35,299 nt of DNA, from contig CAKZML010000108.1 in NCBI GenBank assembly GCA_937128475.1, forward strand, positions 1 to 35,299, in the 5' to 3' direction. The stretch is from an uncultured Chromatiales bacterium. GTDB taxonomy: Bacteria > Pseudomonadota > Gammaproteobacteria > Steroidobacterales > BM003. This document shows, piece by piece, positions 11,284-13,525 of this stretch (position 1 is the stretch's first letter; each line of letters opens with the position of its first letter). Both the position numbers and the translations under genes were made by a program. Under the pieces are notes generated by a model. That model made no database searches. It was not told the origin of the DNA and saw only the letters and a program-made list of their open reading frames with translations.

Positions 11284-11841
11284 GTGTCTGACAACAAGAC
11301 CAGGCGTGCTCCCTCCGGGCGTAGCAAGGCCCGGGAATTGGCCATGTGGGCCCTGTACCAATGGCAGGTGGCAGGCACGGACGAGCGGGAAATTTATAAG
11401 CAGTTCCTGATTGATACCAAGGGTTCCAAACTGAATCTGGATTACATCGCCGGCCTGGTGACTGAGTACATCGAGGAGATGGAAAATGCCTCCCTTGATG
11501 ATTTCAACCCACGCTATTTCTCGGGTGCTGATCCCAGGTATTTCAAAGAACTGATTTTGAAAATCCCGCCCCTGTCTGACGAATTGGACGAGGTGCTCTC
11601 GGCCTTTGCTGATCGCCCCATCGATCAACTTGATCCCGTGGAGCGCAGTATCCTGATGATCGGCGTCTACGAGCTGCGTGATCGCCTGGATGTTCCCTAC
11701 CGGGTTGTGATCAACGAGGCGGTGGAGATGGCCAAGTTTTACGGTGCCGAGGATGGACACCGCTACGTGAATGCGCTGCTGGATAAAGCCGCAGGCGAAC
11801 TTCGCAAGGTAGAGCAGCAAGCCCCTCGCAAGCCACGCTGA
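11284..11841 (+). CDS. nusB: Transcription antitermination factor NusB
   Basis: This 185-residue all-helical RNA-binding protein joins NusE (S10) on boxA RNA in rRNA antitermination. It begins at GTG and contains the basic N-terminal segment RRAPSGRSKARELAMWALYQWQ and the C-terminal YELRDRLDVPYRVVINEAVEMAKFYG. It is longer than E. coli NusB (139 residues), mainly by an insertion around residues 60-90 and a basic tail ending in PRKPR. It is the last gene before a MITE-like insertion that separates it from thiL. Confidence 0.95.
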   Translation: MSDNKTRRAPSGRSKARELAMWALYQWQVAGTDEREIYKQFLIDTKGSKLNLDYIAGLVTEYIEEMENASLDDFNPRYFSGADPRYFKELILKIPPLSDELDEVLSAFADRPIDQLDPVERSILMIGVYELRDRLDVPYRVVINEAVEMAKFYGAEDGHRYVNALLDKAAGELRKVEQQAPRKPR

Positions 11842-11852
11842 GATTGAGCTAA

Positions 11853-11870
11853 GGAGCCTCTGATTTATTC
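11853..11870 (+). repeat. Left terminal inverted repeat of the MITE
   Basis: GGAGCCTCTGATTTATTC, matching the reverse complement of the right repeat (GGAGTCTCTGATATATTC) at 16 of 18 bases. Confidence 0.75.
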
Positions 11871-11994
11871 TGGGCTTAGCAGATTGGGAGTGAAAAAAGT
11901 CAGATTCAAGGCGTAAATCCCACGCGATAGTGGTGCTATCGTGAAGATTGGCAACACAGAAGCTGGATTTTTTGGCCCCAAGATACAAGTTCAT

Positions 11995-12012
11995 GAATAT
12001 ATCAGAGACTCC
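11995..12012 (-). repeat. Right terminal inverted repeat of the MITE
   Basis: Read on the minus strand it is GGAGTCTCTGATATATTC. It is immediately followed by the second CTAA copy. Confidence 0.75.
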
Positions 12013-12071
12013 CTAATGCCCTTAGCCCTTCCGCTTGAGCGCCAACACCTGCATACCCGGGGAGTTACCTC

Positions 12072-13034
12072 TTGAGTGGACTTAGCGAAAGCCAGGTAAT
12101 TCAACTTCTAAGTGAATACGGCGGTCTCCAGCGTCCGGACGTGGTGCTGGGTATTGGTGACGACGGGGCGGTGCTCCAGCCACCCGTAGGTCAGCAGCTT
12201 GTGCAGGTCGTGGATGCCCTGTTCGAGGGTGTGCATTTTCCCCGGGGCATGGACGGTGAGGATCTTGCCTGGCGGGCGTTTGCTGTAAATATCAGCGATA
12301 TCGCCGCCATGGGAGCAGAACCGGCCTGGGCCACGCTGGTGCTTTCCATGCCTGCTGCCGAGGAATCCTGGGTGCGAGCGTTTGCCCGTGGTCTCGGAGA
12401 CTGCACCCGGCAGTTCAATATTTCCCTGGTAGGCGGCGATACAGTACGAGGCCCCCTGGGCGTGTCGGTACAGATCACCGGTTTCGTTCCGACGGGTCAA
12501 GCCTTGCGTCGGCAGGGTGCGGCCGAGGGCGATGGCATCTATATCACCGGGCGTACCGGCCTGGCTGCGGCCGGCCTGGCCTGCCTGCAGGGTGAAATTC
12601 AGCAACAGGATGAACCTGAGCAATGGCGTCAACGATTCCTGCGACCCGAACCGCGCTTGCGCCAGGGCCGTGATCTGAGAGGAGTGGCCAGCGCCTGCCT
12701 GGATATATCCGATGGGTTATTGCGTGACCTGGGCCGTTTGCTTGAGGCCAGTTCAGTAGGCGCGACGGTTTTCCTGGAGAAGATTCCTGGACTGGATGAG
12801 TTGTCTGCCCTGGTCGGTGAGCAAAGAGCTGTGTCCCTGGCGCTTACCGGTGGCGATGATTATGAGTTATGTTTCACCGTGCCCCGCGAGCATGAGGCCA
12901 GGTTGGCTGAACGGGTGCGGGAGTGGTCGTGCGAATGCACGCGGATCGGTGAGATTTCCGGAACCGAGGGTATTCGACTGATGAAGGATGAGCGGGAAAC
13001 CCCTCTTCCTGCCCCAGGATTTGAGCATTTTTAA
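12072..13034 (+). CDS. thiL: Thiamine-monophosphate kinase
   Basis: This 320-residue enzyme phosphorylates thiamine monophosphate to the active cofactor thiamine pyrophosphate. Family signatures are LGIGDDGAVL (metal-binding aspartates), DALFEGVHFP, AVNISDIAAMGAEP, VGGDTVRGP and LDISDGLLRDLGRL. The length is close to E. coli ThiL (325). The start is TTG at 12072 with a GGGGAG ribosome binding site 7 bases upstream; no better in-frame ATG exists. It lies 55 bases after the MITE and 2 bases before pgpA, to which it is coupled. Any promoter of its own would have to lie in the MITE or the short spacer. Confidence 0.95.
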   Translation: MSGLSESQVIQLLSEYGGLQRPDVVLGIGDDGAVLQPPVGQQLVQVVDALFEGVHFPRGMDGEDLAWRAFAVNISDIAAMGAEPAWATLVLSMPAAEESWVRAFARGLGDCTRQFNISLVGGDTVRGPLGVSVQITGFVPTGQALRRQGAAEGDGIYITGRTGLAAAGLACLQGEIQQQDEPEQWRQRFLRPEPRLRQGRDLRGVASACLDISDGLLRDLGRLLEASSVGATVFLEKIPGLDELSALVGEQRAVSLALTGGDDYELCFTVPREHEARLAERVREWSCECTRIGEISGTEGIRLMKDERETPLPAPGFEHF

Positions 13035-13036
13035 GC

Positions 13037-13525
13037 ATGAATAAATCAGTTTCTCCCAAGACAGTATTCACCGATCCAGTGCACTTTCTTGCATTTGGTT
13101 TTGGCAGTGGACTTGCGCCCTGGGCGCCGGGCACCGCAGGCACCCTGGTGGCGGTATTGCTGGAATGGCCCATGCGCTCACAGTCGCTGGAACTTCGCTT
13201 GCTGGTTGCCGCTGCAATGTTTGCGGTGGGAGTCTGGATTTGCGGTGAAAGCGCCCGAAAGCTGGATGCTCATGACCATCCGGGCATCGTGTGGGACGAG
13301 TTCGCCGGGTATTTTCTTACCATGGTGCTGGCGCCCGAGGGCTGGATATGGAGCCTGGTTGGTTTTGCCCTGTTCAGGTTTTTCGATATTCTCAAGCCTT
13401 GGCCAATCCGAGAGATCGATCACAGACTGGGTGGTGGGATTGGGATTATGGTTGACGATACTTTCGCGGGAGTGTTCGCAGGAGTCATCTTGTGGGGCAT
13501 CGCCCAAACCCTTGTTTACCTTTAA
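13037..13525 (+). CDS. pgpA: Phosphatidylglycerophosphatase A
   Basis: This 162-residue inner-membrane enzyme removes phosphate from phosphatidylglycerophosphate to give phosphatidylglycerol. It contains FGSGLAPWAPGTAGTL, the conserved VWDEFAGYFLTM and the RFFDILKPWPI segment of the PgpA family. Several hydrophobic helices follow, including the C-terminal VDDTFAGVFAGVILWGI. The length is close to that of E. coli PgpA (172). The gene follows thiL by 2 bases. The kinase start is 23 bases downstream, or overlaps if an upstream ATG is used. Confidence 0.95.
   Translation: MNKSVSPKTVFTDPVHFLAFGFGSGLAPWAPGTAGTLVAVLLEWPMRSQSLELRLLVAAAMFAVGVWICGESARKLDAHDHPGIVWDEFAGYFLTMVLAPEGWIWSLVGFALFRFFDILKPWPIREIDHRLGGGIGIMVDDTFAGVFAGVILWGIAQTLVYL

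Follow-up and report, generated by a model that had tools for sequence, protein, structure and literature searches.

In the 35,299-nt stretch of DNA analyzed here (the window), the operon ribBA-ribH-nusB-thiL-pgpA has a long gap between the nusB stop at position 11841 and the thiL start at position 12072. This raises the question of what occupies the gap, how it came there, and whether it serves thiL or itself. The original prediction had placed in it a MITE flanked by IS5-like duplications of CTAA. The features of the region are as follows.

11284..11841, + strand: nusB, the upstream neighbor (PF01029 / TIGR01951)
11849..11852, no strand: left target-site duplication CTAA, read directly; a single CTAA is found at the empty site of the relative G001
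11853..12012, + strand (the strand on which the conserved hairpin folds): 160-bp IS5-group MITE, with 13 full-length genome copies at 81-100% identity; 168 bits with covariance model R1
11853..11870, + strand: left terminal inverted repeat GGAGCCTCTGATTTATTC, 16/18 against the right end; near-identical ends bound IS5-family elements of ~1.19 kb
11890..11976, + strand: conserved structured core hairpin of 87 nt with the internal loops CAAGGCG, GAAG, and GCAAC (covariance model R2, 73 bits, E 3e-17; covariation)
11995..12012, - strand: right terminal inverted repeat GGAGTCTCTGATATATTC, 16/18 against the left end
12013..12016, no strand: right target-site duplication CTAA, read directly
12072..13034, + strand: thiL, the downstream neighbor (TIGR01379, 308 bits)

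Positions 11849-12016 read CTAA-GGAGCCTCTGATTTATTC ... GAATATATCAGAGACTCC-CTAA, with 16 matching positions between the 18-bp ends and two perfect copies of CTAA, exactly as had been predicted. The segment is short (160 bp), is bounded by terminal inverted repeats and contains no transposase, which is the composition of a MITE. Scanning of the whole window for this layout (18-bp inverted ends with at least 16/18 matches, 100-220 bp apart, with identical flanking 4-mers) retrieved this segment only, and ten shuffled windows yielded none. At the start of pgpA, a lone sequence on the minus strand (13039-13056) is three mismatches away from the MITE end, where end matches as close as this are expected by chance at 0.04 per window; no partner was found for it.

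The genome carrying the window contains 13 full-length copies of the element with 81-100% identity. The 4-bp flanks are YTAR, or nearly so, at all of them, forming perfect pairs at 11 copies and pairs with a one-base difference at two, and YTAR has been documented as the target motif of IS5 (PMC10359306). The duplications seen (CTAA, CTAG, and TTAG) are thus of the 4-bp type of the IS5 group, and the element is dispersed in multiple copies with target-site duplications, as is usual for MITEs. In the same-genus relative G001, the nusB-thiL site lacks the element and reads GAGATTGAGCTAATGCCC with a single CTAA, compared with CTAA-element-CTAA in the window, and this empty site demonstrates insertion by transposition. 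The segment 11853-12012 is an IS5-group MITE inserted at a YTAR site. Two of the checks proposed with the original prediction, a search for the repeats elsewhere in the genome and for an empty site with one CTAA in relatives, turned out in its favor. Conversely, the two observations named as fatal to it, presence of the same segment without the repeats in relatives and a genome-unique segment conserved as a regulatory leader, do not apply.

The predicted position in the long gap of the operon holds insofar as the element lies between nusB and thiL, but the length of the gap is not due solely to the element, since G001 without it has ~150 bp of other sequence there. The G001 gap (locus L072) also includes ~85 bp absent from the window, which reflects either an insertion there or a deletion here. 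A short derivative of the MITE, with both ends kept and without the core, is seen at positions 26787-26859 of contig C81 in genome G000 (locus L040, near 1501), directly upstream of the start codon of a gene whose product looks like KsgA.

The anticipated lack of a transposase inside the element was borne out, and IS5-family transposases are encoded by autonomous elements bounded by the same ends. The end-pattern scan of genome contigs detected at least 117 stretches; among the matches listed, many are inverted pairs 55-264 bp apart with YTAR duplications, and most come from records titled Gammaproteobacteria and Deltaproteobacteria. At least three transposase-coding elements of 1186-1195 bp share these ends (L105, L112, and L207). 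L105 is a complete element flanked by a CTAG duplication. The L112 transposase matches NF033581 (NCBIfam, IS5 family) with 368 bits against a cut-off of 140, in addition to Pfam PF01609 and PF05598. In genome G050, the MITE is found together with ~20 transposase fragments located mostly at contig edges. No parent transposase was detected in the window genome by PF01609, PF05598, or direct protein search, in an assembly that is fragmented and may miss repeats; the parent was either lost from this genome or its copies were dropped in assembly. Judging from the insertion sequences with the same ends found elsewhere, the MITE would be mobilized in trans by an IS5_4-type enzyme. The Y1 transposase (PF01797) that would point to a REP/RAYT system was not found in the window genome. 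Microbulbifer thermotolerans (L102, L125, L136, L158, and L177) possesses many elements of ~100-230 bp with the same end type, in which similarity to the core is weak or absent.

Pairing in the element runs beyond its ends, so that the whole element forms one long hairpin with a predicted RNA energy of -61.6 kcal/mol (z -5.35), and none of 200 shuffled sequences was as stable. Alignment of 41 copies of ~160 bp from the own and distant genomes (A1), from which the covariance model R1 was built, has 52 consensus pairs, 28 of them with two-sided changes. The second alignment (A3, the source of R2) comprises 33 diverse cores across different end types and has 32 pairs, with two-sided changes in 30. 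Pairing is retained in 93.3% of the A3 cells compared with 60.9% after shuffling, and the covariation score of 0.841 exceeds those of shuffled (0.222) and slid (at most 0.198) controls, a fourfold margin in a comparison where the slid control somewhat favors the structure because it was derived from the same sequences. R2 matches the window at 11890-11976 only. The arms of the core vary freely yet stay complementary, and its short internal loops are fixed (mean identity among cores is 0.80 in the loops and 0.53 in the outer stem). The suggestion that the element could act as an RNA structure is thereby strengthened more than could be known at first reading, through the presence of a conserved structured core. 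Two elements from different genomes (L151:2102-2297 and L111:6531-6725) share an additional hairpin of ~40 nt, homologous and located at the same point in the core, whose structure thereby becomes branched.

The folding of the element is also asymmetric with respect to strand. In 40 of the 41 copies, folding is more stable on the + strand than on the complementary one (mean -73 versus -56 kcal/mol), and GU cells exceed AC cells by 203 to 19 in the inner stems of these copies and by 85 to 12 across families, both being raw counts in which shared ancestry is ignored. The cores behind the strand counts span element families with unrelated ends. An excess of GU together with one-strand folding would be expected if the + strand is read in folded, single-stranded form. 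With DNA folding parameters the same strand preference is observed in 32 of 33 cases, and thus the strand bias does not separate RNA from single-stranded DNA.

R1 detects the element in 41 of 140 genomes across the class, and these frequently have many copies. Some of the matches are confined to the middle of an element, and this middle is shared by elements whose ends are unrelated (L232, L233, L245, and others). Four elements (L238:1501-1697, L243:1398-1587, L244:376-571, and L251:200-395) contain two cores in opposite orientation with a short spacer of CCCTTCGGG or a like sequence between them, and the long inverted ends of these elements are not related to those of IS5 type. Conversely, among the matches listed, many elements with IS5-type ends have no core. 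The occurrence of the core with other ends, and of the same ends without the core, identifies ends and core as separate modules. At E values up to 1e-6, R2 detects the core in 50 of 249 genomes of Pseudomonadota, some of them outside the class of the window. For the window region, Rfam yielded nothing at E values up to 1, and other cores gave sub-threshold matches only, below the gathering threshold. Plasmid and phage collections contained no match, and of two pattern matches in viral contigs one was confirmed by the model.

Does the element affect the operon in which it resides? The window copy is in sense orientation 60 bp upstream of thiL, and it had been proposed that it could reset transcription of thiL-pgpA. 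No consensus promoter-like or intrinsic-terminator-like site was found in this copy; the proposed reset is thus left unsupported, and the element as a supplier of promoter or terminator was rejected. Probably the element is co-transcribed in the operon, adding a hairpin between nusB and thiL, and there is no sign of an effect of this copy on thiL expression. The location just upstream of thiL in sense would also suit a conserved cis-regulatory leader of this gene, but we regard such a role as next to impossible and rejected it, since the site is empty in the same-genus relative and copies occur at 12 other genome locations. None of the 101 scored copies from the own and other genomes lies inside a gene according to a codon-scored ORF caller, which placed nusB correctly at the window copy where a cruder caller misread it. 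Relative to neighboring genes, the codon-scored caller assigned 29 copies to sense and 32 to antisense tandem orientation (28 versus 29 with the crude caller), and hence no sense-strand bias is seen. This balance implies that no particular host gene accounts for the maintenance of the core, and it disfavors a purely cis-acting role in sense mRNA. The likely beneficiary of the core would be the element itself.

Several known groups of repeats resemble the element in part. Autonomous insertion sequences of the IS5 group (NF033581; YTAR targets) share the GGARYCTCTGATT ends and the 4-bp YTAR duplications, and an IS5_4-type transposase is encoded by those that carry these ends; they differ in length (~1.19 kb versus 160 bp without transposase), and past its ends the MITE interior shows no resemblance to the termini of the autonomous elements examined. 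Correia/NEMIS repeats of Neisseria are likewise small multicopy MITEs with inverted ends and long-hairpin transcripts (PMC2229807), but they have TA at their termini and are cut by RNase III in the ends, in contrast to the YTAR targets and the loop-conserved core in many taxa found here. QMITE2 of Coxiella burnetii is a MITE of 150-190 bp whose RNA is predicted to fold very stably (PMC5896051), and going by its description it is set apart by duplications of 7-11 bp. CIR elements of alphaproteobacteria are repeats that lie between genes, are conserved from species to species and keep an RNA structure in two arms (PMC2229807), and the two-core elements L238, L243, and L244 resemble them in outline; CIR contain GANTC sites in place of the CAAGGCG and GCAAC loops of the core, a distinction again made by description. 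In general, small mobile repeats with stable transcripts are ordinary, as illustrated by Correia, ERIC, CIR, and QMITE (PMC2229807, PMC10969869, PMC5896051). Among open-licence papers, we found no description of the end sequence or of the core, nor of a loop-conserved core common to elements with different ends.

An alternative is an ordinary MITE of IS5 origin in which palindrome correction, by template switching or intrastrand conversion, keeps the inner pairing intact as a by-product, without selection. Long hairpins are common in MITEs (PMC10969869; PMC2229807), and palindrome correction alone yields two-sided changes. Nevertheless, correction would erase unpaired internal loops, yet the loops are the most conserved part of the core; it also leaves unexplained the one-strand preference with GU 11 times commoner than AC, and the same loops in elements with unrelated ends. 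We therefore consider this explanation improbable.

A less remote, though still unlikely, alternative is that the core acts as a hairpin of single-stranded DNA extruded at the replication fork and recognized by a host factor or recombinase, as attC is by the integron integrase, RNA being irrelevant. Integron attC sites keep a strand-specific folded structure while their sequence varies. The random orientation relative to genes, the persistence of the strand preference with DNA parameters, and the many copies spread over different transposon ends all agree with such a role. On the other hand, the boundaries here, unlike those of attC, are transposon inverted repeats with target duplications, that is, the ends and duplications of a DDE transposon acting on double-stranded DNA, and no Y1 transposase was found in the genome.

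We favor an IS5-mobilized MITE carrying a selected structural module of one strand, most likely RNA, whose loops are read by a host factor, and assign to this proposal as a whole a probability of about two in three. An IS5-family DDE transposase would have acted on the 18-bp ends, leading to insertion at YTAR between nusB and thiL. Selection would maintain the 87-nt module, common to MITE families with unrelated ends, in its folded single-stranded form and in one polarity. Most likely, read-through transcripts fold into the hairpin, whose loops may be recognized by a host factor, and the folded module could aid the persistence of the element, for example through controlled processing or harmless insertions, and not serve one host gene. 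In a second form of the same idea, a single-stranded DNA hairpin would be bound by a host factor during replication. The ligand and effect of the core make up the last, conjectural step.

From its sequence pattern, the core appears to be an independent structural module of one strand that several transposon families use, as RNA or, less likely, single-stranded DNA, and the presence of the hairpin in elements with different ends suggests that it has a job of its own, seemingly undescribed. For the broader claim that it is an undescribed self-contained RNA or single-stranded DNA module, which several unrelated families of non-autonomous transposons across Pseudomonadota have acquired because it raises their survival or spread, we put the chances as even. 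Small bacterial mobile elements are usually seen as leftovers of insertion sequences. Here, the interior is conserved in its structure, with one strand favored and with no dependence on the ends, so that something in the cell appears to read it. R2 now allows targeted searches, and the loops are well-defined targets for mutation, which makes it testable why such elements persist in genomes from which the transposase has been lost.
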